In this document: positions 14,334-20,801 of the stretch, piece after piece
How positions within the stretch are numbered: position 1 is the first letter of the stretch
How the letters are laid out: each line of letters begins with the position of its first letter
NCBI RefSeq assembly: GCF_015277675.1
Contig: NZ_JADHEC010000015.1
Location: forward strand, 1 to 64,000
Origin: Flavobacterium soyangense
Lineage (GTDB): Bacteria; Bacteroidota; Bacteroidia; Flavobacteriales; Flavobacteriaceae
Direction: 5' to 3'
DNA: 64,000 nucleotides
Translations under genes and position numbers: made by a program
Notes under the pieces: generated by a model
Databases searched by the model: none
What the model saw: only the letters and a program-made list of their open reading frames with translations
What the model was told of the DNA's origin: nothing

Positions 14334-14349
14334 TTTTCAAAATTGAAAA
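14334..14349. promoter_or_regulatory. small dyad near the AAA gene start
   Basis: TTTTCAA (14334-14340) and TTGAAAA (14343-14349) form a 7-bp dyad with two bases between, 48 bases before the ATPase ATG. It could be an operator half-site pair. In such AT-rich sequence it could also occur by chance. Confidence 0.3.
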
Positions 14350-14396
14350 TATTGTCGTTTAGAAATAGTTATATTTGGAAGATAAAATATTTAGGT

Positions 14397-16607
14397 ATGA
14401 GTTTTAAGTTAATTGCTATTAGACCTTTGGAAGGTTGTAATCCAAAATTCTTGAAAGTTTTAAAAGAAAATGAGTTTTACACTTTTTATAGTGATTTTGT
14501 TTTTGAAAAATCACTAAATGAAAATGAAATCAAATTAAAATATAAATCAACTTTGCCAGAAGAATTGTTTTGGGATGATAAAAAATGCCATATAAATGTT
14601 TCAGCCGTTGTTGGGAAAAATGGAAGTGGAAAGAGTAGTATTTTAGAACTTTTTTATGTAGCTATTTATAATTTTTCTGTTATTAAGGGAATTATTAAAG
14701 CTGATGAAATTCTAGAAAATATAGAATTTGATTTTGAAGAATTAAATGATATAGTTAAATCTTCAAATATGGATGATGTCAATAATAATATCAGAATATT
14801 AAATGATTACAAATATTATTTAGAAAATAAGAATAATGAAAAAGAAATAATTGAAATTGAAAATAATATAAATGTTCAAATCTTTTTTACAATTGGAAGT
14901 GAAATATACGTTATTAATCTAAAAAAGACAACTGCCACAATCCATAAACTTAACAAGGACGAAGAAGGCGATTACATTCAATTTTATTGTATTATAAATG
15001 AAAATAATAATGATGAATTTAAATCACTAAAACAAAACTGGGGGTTGTTTTATAGTATTGTAAATAACTATTCTCTTTATGGGTTAAACTCTAATGAAAT
15101 TGGTGATTGGATAAACAAAATTTTTCATAAAAACGATTCCTATCAAACTCCGATTGTAATAAACCCAATGCGAATAGATGGTAATATTGATGTAAATACT
15201 GAAACAGATTTGTCAAAATCAAGATTATTGTCAAATATTTTGACCTACGTAAGGGAGAATGAAAAAATAGAAGATAGTTTTAGATGCTTAGTAAAAAATA
15301 AGATTGCAAGTGATTTAATTTTAAAATTGAAACTTGATAAATTTAAAAATAAAAAAGGAGAGGTTGAATTTGACTATTTAGAGAAATATAAAGAGTTATA
15401 TTTATTAGATATTTTAAATGTTTTTAAAATTCATTCTGATGAACTCGATATTACTAAAAATGAATTTGATAAAAAATATGGAGATGAGAAATTAAATCTT
15501 GCAGAAAAATATGCTATTGAATATGTTTTTAGAAAAATACAAAAAATAGCTAATGTTTATGAAATAGAAAAGAAAAGATTCAGAAGTAAAGAAAGTAAAT
15601 TTGATTTTGAAAGTAAATTATTGGTAAGAGAGTTTCTTGAATTATTAAAAAATGAAGACTCTCACATTACTTTTAAATTACGACAAGCAATTAACTTTTT
15701 GAAATATGATTATAAGAGTTTTTTAAAGACAAGAAATTACGAGGAAGAAGTTATAATTCCAATTGAATCATTATCCAAAGAAATTTTTGAAAATTTACAA
15801 AATCTGCAAAAAAAGTATTTAAAACCAATAAAAGATTCTAATGATAAAGAATGGTTTTTTATTCCGAAGAACTTCAATTTAATAAATTTTATTCCACCTT
15901 CTTTTTTTGAAATTGATATCGATTTTGAAAATAATATGGGAAAATTTAGTTTTTTGAGTTCAGGAGAAAAACAAAAAATATTCAGTATTAGCTCTATTTT
16001 GTACCATATAATGAACATAAATTCAAATCATACTGATAATATTTCGGGTAAATATGAATATAGATATGTAAATATAATGTTTGATGAAATTGAATTATGT
16101 TTTCATCCAGAAATGCAAAAATCATTTATAAATGATTTATTAAAAAGTTTACAAAGAATTGATCATATGAATATTTATATGAATATTGTTTTTGTCACTC
16201 ATTCTCCATTTATTCTTTCGGATATTCCTAATCAAAATATTATGTATTTAGATAAAGGAAATTGTTTGTTTGGGAATAAGAGACCTCAAAATTCCTTCGG
16301 AGCAAATATTACAGATTTATTAGCTGATAGTTTTTTCTTTGGAAATGGTGATAAAGCATTAATTGGAGATTTTGCAAGAGAAAAGATAAAGCAAGTAATC
16401 AAATGGTTAAATAATGAAGAAAGTAAAATTTTAAATAAAGAAGAAGCGAAAATGATTATCGAAATAATCGATGAACCTTTACTCAAATATAAATTATTAG
16501 AAATGTATTTTGATATCTTTCCTGAGCAATATGATTTAGAAAAAGAAAAAGAAGATGTAAGAAAAAGAGCAATAGAATTAGGGATTATAAAAGAAAGAAA
16601 TGATTAA
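14397..16607 (+). CDS. AAA/SMC-like ATPase of a Septu-like defence module
   Basis: This 736-residue ABC/SMC-type ATPase follows the RecF/OLD/PtuA pattern. Walker A GKNGSGKSS is at residues 73-81. The ABC signature LSSGE is at about 520-524. Walker B IMFDEIELCFHPE has D563 and E564, and the switch-histidine motif FVTHSPFILSDIP follows. Between Walker A and the signature lie about 440 residues of Lys, Glu, Asn and Ile-rich helices, which is a long coiled-coil or dimer arm. The ATG at 14397 is chosen over an in-frame TTG at 14343 because the homology-like start SFKLIAIRPLEG follows it. Its last 8 bases overlap the HNH gene, so translation is probably coupled. Base composition is visibly lower in G+C than recG on one side and the DUF1697 gene on the other, as for transferred DNA. 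The defence role is inferred from architecture. Confidence 0.8.
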   Translation: MSFKLIAIRPLEGCNPKFLKVLKENEFYTFYSDFVFEKSLNENEIKLKYKSTLPEELFWDDKKCHINVSAVVGKNGSGKSSILELFYVAIYNFSVIKGIIKADEILENIEFDFEELNDIVKSSNMDDVNNNIRILNDYKYYLENKNNEKEIIEIENNINVQIFFTIGSEIYVINLKKTTATIHKLNKDEEGDYIQFYCIINENNNDEFKSLKQNWGLFYSIVNNYSLYGLNSNEIGDWINKIFHKNDSYQTPIVINPMRIDGNIDVNTETDLSKSRLLSNILTYVRENEKIEDSFRCLVKNKIASDLILKLKLDKFKNKKGEVEFDYLEKYKELYLLDILNVFKIHSDELDITKNEFDKKYGDEKLNLAEKYAIEYVFRKIQKIANVYEIEKKRFRSKESKFDFESKLLVREFLELLKNEDSHITFKLRQAINFLKYDYKSFLKTRNYEEEVIIPIESLSKEIFENLQNLQKKYLKPIKDSNDKEWFFIPKNFNLINFIPPSFFEIDIDFENNMGKFSFLSSGEKQKIFSISSILYHIMNINSNHTDNISGKYEYRYVNIMFDEIELCFHPEMQKSFINDLLKSLQRIDHMNIYMNIVFVTHSPFILSDIPNQNIMYLDKGNCLFGNKRPQNSFGANITDLLADSFFFGNGDKALIGDFAREKIKQVIKWLNNEESKILNKEEAKMIIEIIDEPLLKYKLLEMYFDIFPEQYDLEKEKEDVRKRAIELGIIKERND

Positions 16608-17538
16608 GATAAATCCCTCCTCGAATGCTATTGAGTTTCATCGTAAAAAGGCAAGTAAGTATTTTGAAGATTTAGTATCAAAAGGTTATATTTTAAGAGA
16701 TAAAAAGCAAAAAAATATTTGTAAAACATTTTTGATTTTTCTTACAAAGTACAAAGATGAATTAATTAATGCAATGCCTAATCGACTGCTTGAAATACAT
16801 CAAGAGTTCGAAAATAAAAATTTTTCTAAACATCAATTAACATTGATAAAGAGTTTTTTTCTAAAAACGTGCTATGATAATTTTCCGAATAAAGAATTTT
16901 TAAACCATTTAAAAATTGATACTTGTGTGTATTGTAATAGAAATTACACATTATATTTTGGAGGAAATAATGCAAGAGCAGAACTTGACCATTGGTATCC
17001 TAAAGAAAAATTTCCTATTTTGGCGATGTCTTTTTATAATTTAATTCCAAGTTGTCATTCTTGTAACCATATTAAAGGAAACGGAGATGTTTTAATAAGA
17101 CAATTATTAAAAGAGCCAAAAGCCAATCAAAATGAAATTAAAGATTGGTGGAAAAATGCTTTAGATAATTTGAATCATCCATATTTAGAATGCAGTAAAT
17201 TTAAATTCAGTTATTCTTATATATCTATAAATAATTTTGGTGTTGAATTAAAAAAGACTAACAATATAAAAACTGAAAATACATTAGAATTTAATAAAAC
17301 CAAAGAAATCTACAGTGCAAATTCTAACAAAGAATTGAAAGACTTATTAGACTTAAGATATAAGTATTCAGAGAATTACATTGATGTCTTGATAAATAAA
17401 ACATTCAAAGGGATTATGTCAAAAGAAGAAATTTACCGTATGATTTTTGGCATAGAAATCAAAGAAGAAGATTATCATAAAAGACCATTCAGTAAATTTA
17501 AGCACGATATAATTGAAGAATTAAAAAACATAAAATAA
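16600..17538 (+). CDS. HNH endonuclease, PtuB-like partner
   Basis: This 312-residue protein has one zinc-stabilised HNH nuclease domain in its middle. The domain has C109-x2-C112, the catalytic-type motif D130-H131-W-Y-P-K, an NLIP segment with N147, and C152-x2-C155 followed by N156-H157-x-K159-G. The order CxxC, DHxxPK, NLxPxCxxCN, KG is that of PtuB and related HNH effectors of Septu systems. The N-terminal 100 residues and the C-terminal 150 residues are helical, with no motif I recognise. Its ATG overlaps the ATPase stop by 8 bases. The ATPase is expected to hold the nuclease inactive until invasion is sensed (inference from Septu). A reverse transcriptase, seen in retron-Septu loci, is absent nearby. 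Confidence 0.8.
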   Translation: MIKINPSSNAIEFHRKKASKYFEDLVSKGYILRDKKQKNICKTFLIFLTKYKDELINAMPNRLLEIHQEFENKNFSKHQLTLIKSFFLKTCYDNFPNKEFLNHLKIDTCVYCNRNYTLYFGGNNARAELDHWYPKEKFPILAMSFYNLIPSCHSCNHIKGNGDVLIRQLLKEPKANQNEIKDWWKNALDNLNHPYLECSKFKFSYSYISINNFGVELKKTNNIKTENTLEFNKTKEIYSANSNKELKDLLDLRYKYSENYIDVLINKTFKGIMSKEEIYRMIFGIEIKEEDYHKRPFSKFKHDIIEELKNIK

Positions 17539-17539
17539 A

Positions 17540-18085
17540 ATGACAACTCATCTCGTACTTCTTCGTGGCATCAATGTTTCTGGACATAATATGATAAAAA
17601 TGGAAGCTTTGAAAACTACATTAGAGGCTATTGGTTTCGAAAATGTGCAAACTTATATACAATCTGGAAATGTTTTTGTGGACACTGAGGAAGAGAATGC
17701 TGCTGCCGTTGGTTTTAAAATCAAGCAGGAAATTTTCAAGGCTTTTGGTCACGAAGTTCCAGTAGTTGTTATTGGTAAAGCGGATTTAGAAGCCTGTTTA
17801 AAGAACAACCCTTTTTTGAAAGAAGTAGTATTGGACATTAAAAAATTATATGTGGCTTTTGTTTCTACGATTTTGCGAAGCGATAATATCAATGATTTAA
17901 AAATCAGTCAATTTAAACCTGATGAAGCTAGTATTGATGAAAATAAAATTTACATTAAATATGCTGTTGGAGCCGGAAAAACAAGATTTGACCAGAAATA
18001 TATCGAGAAAAAACTTAACGTAACGGCAACTATACGGAATTGGAATACAGTGACGCAATTGTTACAACTATTTGATGAAAGATAA
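17540..18085 (+). CDS. DUF1697 family protein
   Basis: This 181-residue protein is of the DUF1697 family, recognised from the start LLRGINVSGHNMIKM, the motif YIQSGNVF near residue 40 and the end ATIRNWNTVTQLLQL. The family is widespread, cytosolic and of unknown function. The ATG lies one base after the HNH stop codon, so the gene is presently in the same transcription unit as the defence module. Its base composition is higher in G+C than the HNH gene, as for a resident chromosomal gene. The join suggests the module entered immediately in front of this gene and took over its expression (inference). Confidence 0.88.
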   Translation: MTTHLVLLRGINVSGHNMIKMEALKTTLEAIGFENVQTYIQSGNVFVDTEEENAAAVGFKIKQEIFKAFGHEVPVVVIGKADLEACLKNNPFLKEVVLDIKKLYVAFVSTILRSDNINDLKISQFKPDEASIDENKIYIKYAVGAGKTRFDQKYIEKKLNVTATIRNWNTVTQLLQLFDER

Positions 18086-18109
18086 CAAAAATAATTATAA
18101 TTCATTTTC

Positions 18110-18733
18110 ATGTACTTATTCAAAAACAAATACAAAACCGAATCAAACCGATTGAAAAACTGGGATTATTCCAGTGAAGCTATCTATTTTATCACGATGG
18201 TTTCTCGAAATAGAGAATGTATTTTTGGTGTTATTGATGACGATAAAATGGTTTTGATTGAAAATGGAAAGATCATTGAAAAAGAATTGTTAAAATCAAT
18301 TGGAATTCGGGGGCGTTGGTTTTTTCATAATTGGGTTATTATGCCCAATCATATTCATTTGTTGATTGAAATTAAAATTGATTCATCATCCAATGTAAAG
18401 ACGCACGATGTAGAGACGCACTGCAGTGCGTCTCTACATCAATGCAAATCCCAACGCGAATGGGAATCCGAACGCGGGTACGAACACGAACCCCAATTAA
18501 ACCCAAAAAAAATATCCCGAAAACCCAATTCTATTTCGTCATTTGTTGCAGTATTTAAATCGGTTACAACAAAACAAATTAATTTATTGATAGAAAATAA
18601 TGATGGCGAATCTGTTTGGCAAACGAATTATCACGATCATATTGTCCGAAACTATAATTCATTGGATACAATTTATTATTACATAAAAAACAATCCCAAG
18701 AATTGGAATACGGATTCTATAAATATTGATTAG
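18110..18733 (+). CDS. REP-associated tyrosine transposase (RAYT, Y1_Tnp)
   Basis: This 207-residue IS200/REP-type HUH single-strand transposase has the metal-binding HUH pair in VIMPNHIHLLIEI (H81 and H83). The family signature SSFVAVFKSVTT is near residue 143, and the C-terminal DHIVRNYNSLDTIYYYIKNNP corresponds to the conserved helix of RAYTs. Between the HUH motif and the FKS motif sits an unusual 45-residue insertion (about 92-137) encoded by repeat DNA, including a perfect 34-bp palindrome. RAYTs usually move or maintain REP palindromes, so a palindrome inside the gene is notable. The frame stays open. It may still be active or may have diverged in its loop. Confidence 0.85.
   Translation: MYLFKNKYKTESNRLKNWDYSSEAIYFITMVSRNRECIFGVIDDDKMVLIENGKIIEKELLKSIGIRGRWFFHNWVIMPNHIHLLIEIKIDSSSNVKTHDVETHCSASLHQCKSQREWESERGYEHEPQLNPKKISRKPNSISSFVAVFKSVTTKQINLLIENNDGESVWQTNYHDHIVRNYNSLDTIYYYIKNNPKNWNTDSINID
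18407..18440. repeat. perfect 34-bp palindrome (REP-like) inside the RAYT gene
   Basis: The arm GATGTAGAGACGCACTG is followed at once by its exact reverse complement, centred on CTGCAG. A degenerate half copy (TGTAAAGACGCAC) precedes it at about 18394-18406. It is read in frame as residues 100-110 of the transposase. The word GTAGAGACGC and its complement resemble REP palindromes I recall near RAYT genes in cyanobacteria and Bacteroidota. Confidence 0.9.
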
Positions 18734-18734
18734 A

Positions 18735-20801
18735 ATGAAATACCTTTTCCTTTTAATTTCCACAATCGTTTTTGCACAACAAACTAAATCTGTCGATTTT
18801 AAATCGGTTTATGGTCAATTGACTATTAATCCAGTTGAAAAATCTGTTTCGGGATCGGTTCGGTATTGGTTTACGGTTTTGAAACCCATTGACACCCTTA
18901 AAATTGACGCTCAGAATATGATTTTTTCCGAGGTGGAAATGAACGAAAAGAAAATAGAATTTACGACCAATGGGAAACAAATTTTATTGATTTATCCTTT
19001 CCAAAAAGGCAAAAACACTCTAAGTTTTAAATATAAAGCGATTCCAAAACAAACTTTATATTTTGTTGGTTCTGAATTCACAAATAATTTACAAATTTGG
19101 ACACAAGGGCAAGGTAAATATACCAGCAATTGGTTTCCGAGTTTTGACGATGTGAATGAAAAAATGATTTTTAAATTAGGAGTTACTTTCGATGCCAATT
19201 ATCAGGTTATTTCGAACGGAATTTTGCAAGAAAAATACAAAAACAACAATACTTTTTATTGGGAGTATAGAATGCAAAAACCAATGAGTTCCTATTTATT
19301 GATGCTTGCCATTGGGAAATTCGATAAGAAAATTGAGGTTTCAAAATCTGGAATACCTTTGGAAATGTACTATGAGCCTTCAACTTCATCCCAATTTGAA
19401 CCTACTTTTCGCTATTCTAGAAAAATTTTCGACTTTCTGGAAAAAGAAATAGGAGTGAAGTATCCTTGGGAAATATACAGGCAAATTCCGGTTCGTGATT
19501 TTTTGTATGCCGGAATGGAAAACACTTCGGCGACCCTATTTTCTAGTCGGTATATTGTTGATTCAACGGGTTTTGAAGATCGAAATTATACCAATGTAAA
19601 TGCACACGAATTAGCACATCAATGGTTTGGAGACATGGTTACTGCCGAAAGTGGCAAACACCATTGGCTTCAGGAAGGTTTTGCCACTTATTATGCTTTG
19701 CTGGCTGAGAAAGAAATTTATGGTGAAGATTATTTTTATTCCAAATTATATGAATATGCGCAACAACTTAAACAAGCGTTTAAAACAGATTCAATTCCTG
19801 TCCTGAATGCCAATGCAAGTTCGTTGAGTTTCTACCAAAAAGGAGCTTGGGCGTTATACGTTTTGCATGAAGGAATTGGTGACAAAGCCTTTAAAAAATC
19901 AGTGCGAAGTTATTTGAAAAAACATTCTTTTCAAAGCGTAAATACTCGGGATTTCTTAGATGAAATCAAGAAGTTTTCTAATTATGATTTGGATGATTTT
20001 AGTAAAGTATGGCTTGAAAATTCGAATTTTAACAGTCAAATTGCCAATGATTTACTTTCAAAAAATAAAATAGCCTATTTGCTTATTAAAATTGAAAAAC
20101 TTCGAAATAAATCTTTGTCCGAGAAAGAGGAATTCTTTACGAAAACGATGCAATCGGATGTGTATTTTTCAGTAAAAGAAGCCATTGTTTACCAATTAAA
20201 AAACGAAAAATTTGAGGATAAAAAACAGTTGCTATTTCTTGCTTTGGAAACCCATAATTTACAAATTCGTCAAGCGGTCGCTGCTATTTTGACATCAATT
20301 CCTGAAGAGTTCAGAATAGAATATGAAAGTTTACTAAATGATAAATCGTATCAAACACAGGAAATAGCCTTGTATAATTTGTGGAATAATTTTCCGGAAC
20401 ATCGCATTCAATATTTAGATAAATCAAAAAATTGGATTGGTTTTAACGATTATAATTTAAGGACTTTGTGGTTATCGCTGGCGTTGTCAACGTTAGATTA
20501 TCCAGTAAAAAATGAAGTTTTAACCAATGAATTGATTGATTATTCTTCACCGAATTTCGAAGCAATCACCAGACAAAATGCTTTAGAGAAATTGATTGCC
20601 TTTCATTTAATTAATGATACGGTTTTGAAAAATTTAGTTAACGCAACAACGCATCATATGTGGCAATTTTCTAAATTTGGAAGAGAAAATATCCGAACTT
20701 TGTTAAAGAATCAGGAAATGAGAGTTTCTTTCGAAAGGATTTTACCGGATTTAGACGAAAGAGAACAATTACAATTGAACCGATTGTTAAAAGAGAAATA
20801 G
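18735..20801 (+). CDS. M1 family zinc aminopeptidase
   Basis: This 688-residue exported metallopeptidase removes N-terminal residues from peptides. A short signal peptide covers residues 1-15. The substrate-binding GAMEN-type motif is at G260-M-E-N263. The zinc site is H291-E292-L-A-H295 with E314 19 residues later (WLQEGF). The catalytic Tyr region follows near residue 375 (FYQKGAWALYVL). The C-terminal third is helical and HEAT-like. The ATG at 18735 is chosen over a TTG at 18726 because it lies one base after the transposase stop and opens directly into the signal peptide. It is probably periplasmic, or lipid- or cell-associated. The patatin gene follows after 7 bases, so the two are likely co-transcribed. 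Confidence 0.93.
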   Translation: MKYLFLLISTIVFAQQTKSVDFKSVYGQLTINPVEKSVSGSVRYWFTVLKPIDTLKIDAQNMIFSEVEMNEKKIEFTTNGKQILLIYPFQKGKNTLSFKYKAIPKQTLYFVGSEFTNNLQIWTQGQGKYTSNWFPSFDDVNEKMIFKLGVTFDANYQVISNGILQEKYKNNNTFYWEYRMQKPMSSYLLMLAIGKFDKKIEVSKSGIPLEMYYEPSTSSQFEPTFRYSRKIFDFLEKEIGVKYPWEIYRQIPVRDFLYAGMENTSATLFSSRYIVDSTGFEDRNYTNVNAHELAHQWFGDMVTAESGKHHWLQEGFATYYALLAEKEIYGEDYFYSKLYEYAQQLKQAFKTDSIPVLNANASSLSFYQKGAWALYVLHEGIGDKAFKKSVRSYLKKHSFQSVNTRDFLDEIKKFSNYDLDDFSKVWLENSNFNSQIANDLLSKNKIAYLLIKIEKLRNKSLSEKEEFFTKTMQSDVYFSVKEAIVYQLKNEKFEDKKQLLFLALETHNLQIRQAVAAILTSIPEEFRIEYESLLNDKSYQTQEIALYNLWNNFPEHRIQYLDKSKNWIGFNDYNLRTLWLSLALSTLDYPVKNEVLTNELIDYSSPNFEAITRQNALEKLIAFHLINDTVLKNLVNATTHHMWQFSKFGRENIRTLLKNQEMRVSFERILPDLDEREQLQLNRLLKEK

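Follow-up and report, generated by a model that had tools for sequence, protein, structure and literature searches.

A REP-type palindrome translated within a RAYT gene of Flavobacterium soyangense, with conserved silent sites among its relatives

REPs lying in frame inside RAYT genes are already known. Quentin et al. 2018 (PMC6006769) reported "double foot" REPs of this kind in genes of TnpAREP subclass 2.4, a subclass that was delimited by clustering of protein sequences and by a tree, that typically has flanking REPs and that, as stated in the accessible parts of that paper, corresponds to RAYT group 4 of Bertels et al. 2017. According to accessible parts of PMC8266576, TnpAREP enzymes from two further groups can bind or cleave single-stranded DNA hairpins with GTAG in vitro, and the REPs of E. 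coli are extragenic and need a bulge for activity. In-frame palindromic elements also occur in unrelated genes, as the Rickettsia RPE and intragenic GTAG/CGTC REPs illustrate (PMC3733652, accessible parts). Silent-site constraint on an embedded REP is absent from the available passages of PMC6006769, whose main text does not contain the word 'synonymous', and neither such constraint on in-gene REPs nor an in-frame inverted pair is reported in the titles and abstract starts listed by our searches of one open-access library. Exact matches of short sequences in the literature, judged by titles and abstract starts, were chance primer matches. The comparative findings given below go beyond the accessible literature.

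The window, a 64,000-nucleotide stretch of a Flavobacterium soyangense contig (NZ_JADHEC010000015.1), contains a RAYT gene with the following features:

18110 to 18733, forward strand: RAYT/TnpAREP-type Y1 transposase gene, 207 aa (Pfam, NCBIfam, alignment A1, Foldseek)
18359 to 18538, forward strand: variable loop from the HxH strand to the FK helix, about residues 84-143 (loop bounds; pLDDT under 50 at 95-137)
18395 to 18406, forward strand: half copy of the REP arm, 12 nt with one mismatch to GTAGAGACGCAC, encoding residues 96-99 (VKTH)
18407 to 18440, no strand: perfect palindrome in frame, 34 bp, encoding residues 100-111 (DVETHCSASLHQ)
18410 to 18437, no strand: double-foot REP core, a 28-mer made of GTAG foot, hairpin and CTAC foot; the assembly's sole copy

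An earlier note on this DNA had recognized the gene as a RAYT, and that identity is well founded: the ORF scores 31 bits against Pfam Y1_Tnp (PF01797), above the gathering cut-off of 23, it has HUH and Y motifs, and its predicted fold has a Foldseek match to relevant enzymes. With the NCBIfam model NF047646 (REP_Tyr_transpos) it scores 57.3 bits (E 1.6e-15, in two stretches), below the curated cut-off of 80. The HUH motif is N80-H81-I82-H83; N80, H81, H83 and Y191 do not vary across ten aligned sequences, and Y191, within YIKNNP, is the candidate catalytic tyrosine. A PDB sequence search with the protein gave no match at E values up to 1, and the fold was therefore compared by Foldseek, using an AlphaFold2 model built from a shallow alignment (mean pLDDT 70.9, pTM 0.70), which matched IS200-type transposases and the E. 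coli TnpAREP-REP complex 4er8 (E 2e-5). The window gene and its palindrome thus resemble E. coli TnpAREP and its REPs in the HUH/Y1 fold, the GTAG foot and the hairpin. Model confidence falls below a pLDDT of 50 across residues 95-137, the palindrome residues included, which suggests that this segment of the loop is probably disordered. The HxH-FK loop comprises about 60 residues rather than the 45 first attributed to it.

The inverted repeat has arms of 17 bp each (18407-18423 and 18424-18440) with no spacer. In 5000 synonymous recodings of the gene the longest stem in the loop was 9 bp, compared with the real stem of 17, so the palindrome is not a product of chance; folding of the 61-nt stretch gave z-scores of -6.2 as DNA and -6.8 as RNA. 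The half copy begins 15 bp ahead of the 28-mer core, and one or several such 15-bp half units occur in the loops of four related genes (L230, L254, L267 and L272). A perfect 34-bp palindrome translated in frame within the loop, a partial second copy and a REP-like character had all been proposed in the earlier note; we find the palindrome at 18407-18440, the partial copy as the 12-nt element at 18395-18406, and a GTAG...CTAC element of REP type within an inserted loop.

Set against the accessible description of subclass 2.4 (PMC6006769), the gene carries the motifs NH[IFV]H (as NHIH, residues 80-83), WQ (within VWQ) and YIxNNP (as YIKNNP), a variable insertion between beta3 and alphaC (a loop of 15-217 aa in the genus, of low model confidence), a double-foot REP with 5' GT[AG]G and 3' C[TC]AC at 18410-18437, and an in-frame REP between HUH and Y; Bacteroidetes are common to the two. 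Unlike that subclass as described there, the window gene is without flanking REPs, its genome is without dispersed REPs, and its genus also has an in-frame inverted REP pair. Its palindrome is perfect and lies in a gene, in contrast to the extragenic, bulge-dependent E. coli REPs (PMC8266576, accessible parts). With the elements of PMC3733652, as far as the accessible text describes them, it shares a palindrome translated within a protein; the window's case differs from those in that the host is a transposase of the REP-acting family, a single loop is used recurrently and silent bases are conserved. The premise that RAYTs act on REPs outside genes is no rule here, in-frame REPs having been reported in 2018 (PMC6006769, accessible parts).

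We searched the window's assembly (3.47 Mb, 95 contigs) for further copies. The 28-mer occurs at a single place, the one in the gene, with up to 3 mismatches allowed; the looser pattern TAGAGACGC-N0-14-GCGTCTCTA has one place and no second in the assembly, and a single-foot REP pattern likewise has one place there and none elsewhere. There is one RAYT match in the assembly at E 0.01. With one copy and one RAYT match at that threshold, the palindrome was rejected as an amplified REP of this genome, and a definition of REPs as repeated and extragenic does not fit an element that is single and intragenic. The earlier note had proposed a genome-wide count and held that a palindrome found nowhere else in the genome would speak against its idea; nowhere else in the assembly is it found. 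Despite its single copy here, the palindrome belongs to a family that is repeated in other genomes: contigs bearing the labels of several phyla contain it, and many congeners have several copies each.

The genes on either side of the RAYT leave little space:

17540 to 18085, forward strand: DUF1697 gene directly upstream of the RAYT, separated by a 24 bp gap
18735 to 20801, forward strand: M1-family metallopeptidase gene, starting 1 bp past the RAYT stop
18086 to 18734, forward strand: 649-bp block of the window that is 3 bp in the relative G359 (blastn of the window against L372)

With neighbours 24 bp and 1 bp away, there is no room for REPs flanking the RAYT, and the 1.5 kb that precede the peptidase gene contain no footed palindrome other than the embedded one. 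In G359 the DUF1697 and M1-peptidase genes lie 3 bp apart, an empty site. Among the 30 best-scoring peptidase loci (from 133 of 150 genomes with a match; not a random draw), 10 have a RAYT match whose end lies 4-14 bp short of the peptidase, with the stop codon within the gap, one (G315) has a RAYT remnant, and 19 have none. From these sequence comparisons the position of the RAYT looks like a shared, vertically inherited one with losses and not like that of a roaming element. A TTTGTAACTTTG stretch lies upstream of the RAYT in L384, L385, L390, L391 and L394 and upstream of the peptidase in L373 and L380, two loci with no RAYT, as though the RAYT separated the peptidase from its promoter. The closest relative by peptidase, G359, carries two double-foot palindromes and no RAYT match; in L378 (from G446), another locus where the RAYT is absent, a double-foot palindrome lies about 112 bp upstream of the peptidase gene.

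RAYT homologues are present in 121 of 398 genomes of the window's genus. We read 91 loci of the better-scoring RAYTs and kept 86 full uninterrupted ORFs (from 79 genomes) after dropping L252, L270, L293, L300 and L327, which have no full-length uninterrupted RAYT ORF; loop bounds were available for 81 of the 86. A hairpin with a GTAG or CTAC foot follows the HUH motif in 71 of the 86 ORFs and precedes it in 2, and 200 synonymous recodings gave an expectation of 1.4 on average (maximum 6) for such hairpins after HUH. Those 71 genes divide into 28 with at least one double-foot element, 27 with single-foot elements in both orientations (20 of them with exactly one S+ and then one S-) and 16 with one single-foot element. 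Under a stricter test for perfect stems, a stem of at least 9 bp was found in 53 of 81 loops as against 8 of 81 elsewhere in the gene, with a recoding expectation of 1.1. Loop length in the 81 genes ranges from 15 to 217 aa (median 58). Two open frames are used, the less common one, with RRDAMHCVST-type peptides, in 8 of 44 double-foot elements from 115 ORFs.

The earlier note had suggested alignment with other RAYTs as a check; the loop does vary among relatives, and REPs recur in it. The outcome named there as counter-evidence, homologues whose loop is the same but consists of unrelated DNA, is seen in a minority only: 15 of the 86 ORFs have no footed hairpin after HUH. Five genes (L324, L334, L337, L339 and L340) have retained a stem and lost the feet, and the embedded site is thus dispensable, since 15 of 86 genes do without a footed hairpin and some have the stem without feet. 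Inserts also occur at other positions. L262 has a second loop (TTKQIN to IWQSN) with a double-foot palindrome and half copies in another frame, which its sister L253 is without; inserts of L267 and L272 are similar to this second-loop insert; and L151, L188, L099 and L118 have REP-like peptides in an earlier turn, before the LSxxG motif.

In the window's family, a homologue was found in 31 of 299 genomes (E 1e-10) and the palindrome in 11 of 299. Flavobacterium sp. ACAM 123 (L230) has a partial ORF, 66% identical, with the same double motif (VETHDVETHCSASL versus VKTHDVETHCSASL). The pattern GTAGAGACGC-N0-10-GCGTCTCTAC occurs in at least 119 stretches of genome contigs, many of them metagenome bins, labelled Bacteroidota, Cyanobacteria, Spirochaetes, Planctomycetes and others. 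Among the genome-contig matches listed, 34 of 130 palindromes lie in ORFs of at least 120 aa; 9 of these 34 ORFs match RAYT and 25 have no RAYT match, the ORFs being mechanically called. A total of 19 in-RAYT palindromes were collected, 3 being the window itself, 6 coming from loci of the RAYT search and 10 from the palindrome scan. Palindrome-bearing RAYTs in viral contigs were rejected as a candidate, none of 117 palindromes there lying inside a RAYT ORF of at least 120 aa.

REPINs (Bertels and Rainey 2011) are reportedly laid out as an inverted REP pair. A sister clade of the window gene shares this layout, S+ ... S-, but has its pair within the RAYT coding sequence, where the loop usually encodes two REPs, one with a GTAG foot and one with a CTAC foot, the second being approximately the reverse complement of the first, often with a stem mismatch included. 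Two distant genes, L303 and L338, also have the S+ ... S- layout, with a different stem sequence, and L278 and L280 each have several REP pairs in one gene. In a tree of 86 rows and 179 of 607 columns, made by a quick search with midpoint root and with several nearby forks open, the double-foot genes, that of the window included, are placed below the 28-gene inverted-pair clade (SH-aLRT 92), and for this reason the inverted pair looks derived from the double-foot form, an order that is favoured and not proven. Central deletion of an inverted pair is mentioned in the accessible text of PMC6006769 as a possible route to the double-foot form. As the origin of the window palindrome we rejected it, the tree favouring the reverse direction (SH-aLRT 92, midpoint root). 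Over the 86 rows of the tree the loop switches state (double-foot, pair, single or none) no fewer than 27 times, so turnover is frequent and the state labile.

The evidence that bears most directly on why the palindrome is there comes from silent sites. Between the window gene and 8 relatives keeping VETHCSASL, nine genes picked for retaining that peptide motif, four-fold sites differ in 2 of 40 comparisons within the palindrome versus 120 of 220 in the gene core. In the sister clade, whose elements (28 genes) were picked by peptide motif alone with the first match per gene taken, and whose pairs are not independent, differences number 0 of 1093 (26 genes) and 0 of 867 (23 genes) in the two REPs versus 5179 of 11498 in the core; hairpin bases that change the amino acid do vary in this clade. 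The window and G620, which has no other double-foot copy and one related single-foot REP, share the same 28 bases, and 12 of 27 four-fold sites in their cores differ. The loop sequence around the palindrome differs among relatives. The two arms also vary together: in 71 genes for which the left 8-mer was the sole selection criterion, 8.3 of the 9 inner pairs are formed, compared with 5.9 (maximum 6.3) when right halves were shuffled among genes, a procedure that ignores relatedness. Fixed silent bases in a gene that otherwise drifts suggest that the DNA itself is being kept, and we infer that the constraint acts on the nucleotide palindrome and not on the peptide. The "self-targeting site" offered as one possibility in the earlier note fits such a nucleotide-level constraint.

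Across the genus, the pattern GTAGAGACN(11-14)GTCTCTAC occurs at 222 places in 92 of 398 genomes, and its reversed control has matches in 2 genomes. The 79 genomes with a full RAYT ORF hold 103 of these places, 25 of them inside RAYT ORFs (22 genomes). The embedded copy is the sole double-foot copy in 7 genomes, the window's included, and 24 genomes with a full RAYT ORF have double-foot copies, none of which is embedded. In three of the seven sole-copy genomes, a search for single-foot REPs elsewhere gave none for the window's genome, one for G620 and many for G360. Hairpin-loop types of outside copies resemble the embedded one in G471 (CGCA, 17 of 20), G458 (AGCA, 17 of 21) and G498 (TGCA, 22 of 38), all among the places listed; by the same measure the matching is weak in G483 (2 of 8), 7 of 12 places in G642 match one of its two types, and G388 is mixed. 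These matches are hand counts that cover G399 in part and do not extend to G582. Of 30 genomes picked for having no RAYT match, 21 carry REPs of this type, with up to 60 matches, which indicates that REPs persist independently of a RAYT gene. G682, G302 and G400, with no RAYT match at E 1e-8, have at least 44 REP matches (both strands summed), and G388 carries a REP array with a spacing of roughly 221-226 bp (G388:C1:1525997-1528233) just upstream of a RAYT at C1:1528440.

Together, these results lead us to favour, with a probability of roughly 0.55, a domesticated and vertically kept RAYT of subclass 2.4/group 4 type that has retained its embedded double-foot REP as a likely cis site. In an ancestor, a double-foot REP of the RAYT's own substrate family would have inserted into the loop that joins the HUH strand to the following helix, and it would have stayed in frame ever since; the part retained would be the nucleotide palindrome with its GTAG and CTAC feet and not the peptide. 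The embedded copy would then probably be a working cis site, a hairpin for the enzyme to bind in the single-stranded form of its gene or in its mRNA. Enzyme and substrate would travel and coevolve as one unit, and the outcome could be feedback on expression or the seeding of dispersed copies. Speaking against this reading are the 15 of 86 genes with no footed hairpin after HUH and those that have lost the feet, the frequent changes of state, the 24 genomes whose double-foot copies all lie outside RAYT ORFs, the uneven matching of loop types, and the 21 of 30 genomes that carry such REPs and no RAYT match.

Quentin et al. 2018 offered a different interpretation (PMC6006769, accessible parts), namely a selfish insertion that is tolerated: REPs inserted near their source gene by RAYT activity or by slippage survive where they fall in frame into a flexible loop, without the palindrome serving any function in the gene. 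The very low model confidence of the loop agrees with this, as do the repeated gains visible as several REP pairs or tandem half units and at least 27 state changes, the second-loop insert in another frame of L262 but not of its sister L253, the in-frame REPs of unrelated genes (PMC3733652, accessible parts) and the 25 of 34 in-ORF palindromes whose mechanically called ORFs have no RAYT match in the genome-contig sample, among the matches listed. We nevertheless consider it rather unlikely, since it leaves unexplained both the unchanging silent sites, next to a core in which about half of the four-fold sites differ, and the retention of the palindrome in genomes without another double-foot copy. 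A still more doubtful explanation overall, though a serious rival in REP-rich genomes, is that embedded and dispersed REPs exchange by conversion or repeated replacement, which would give a frozen look without selection on the gene. Embedded and dispersed types do tend to match within genomes, and the multi-pair genes L278 and L280, along with the frequent state changes, suggest turnover; however, the window's genome and six others are without a double-foot copy outside RAYT ORFs, and the window's genome is also without a single-foot REP elsewhere (G620 has one and G360 many). That the window and G620 palindromes are identical while 12 of 27 core four-fold sites differ, and that the loop around the palindrome differs between relatives, likewise weigh against such exchange.

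Selection might also have acted on the embedded peptide (VETHCSASL and its kin) as a protein element, with the palindrome as by-product. Frame 0 dominates in the genus, and VEAHSSAS, AETHCCAPL and similar peptides recur; yet the other open frame is used too (RRDAMHCVST and the like, in 8 of 44 double-foot elements from 115 ORFs), peptide-changing hairpin bases vary and four-fold ones do not, and the residues fall within the segment with pLDDT under 50. We regard this as very improbable.

A broader statement, which we put forward tentatively and at just under even odds, is that RAYTs of this group would store their own substrate in frame as a selected nucleotide element, a palindrome in some and an inverted pair in the sister clade, kept base for base at silent sites, so that enzyme and site would be inherited together as a single cassette able to regulate itself or to reseed dispersed REPs. 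The fixed silent bases of an embedded REP, in a gene that drifts elsewhere, give a direct handle on why hosts keep RAYTs and on how REP and RAYT remain matched. The silent-site result argues against in-gene REPs being merely tolerated, and the order of double-foot and inverted-pair forms on the tree is opposite to the central-deletion route of 2018.

Beside the RAYT, at 14343-17538 of the window, lies a gene pair encoding an AAA ATPase and an HNH endonuclease, which matches the PADLOC candidate system PDC-M62A/B (E 5.6e-49 and 1.4e-40) and, more weakly, Septu PtuA/PtuB.
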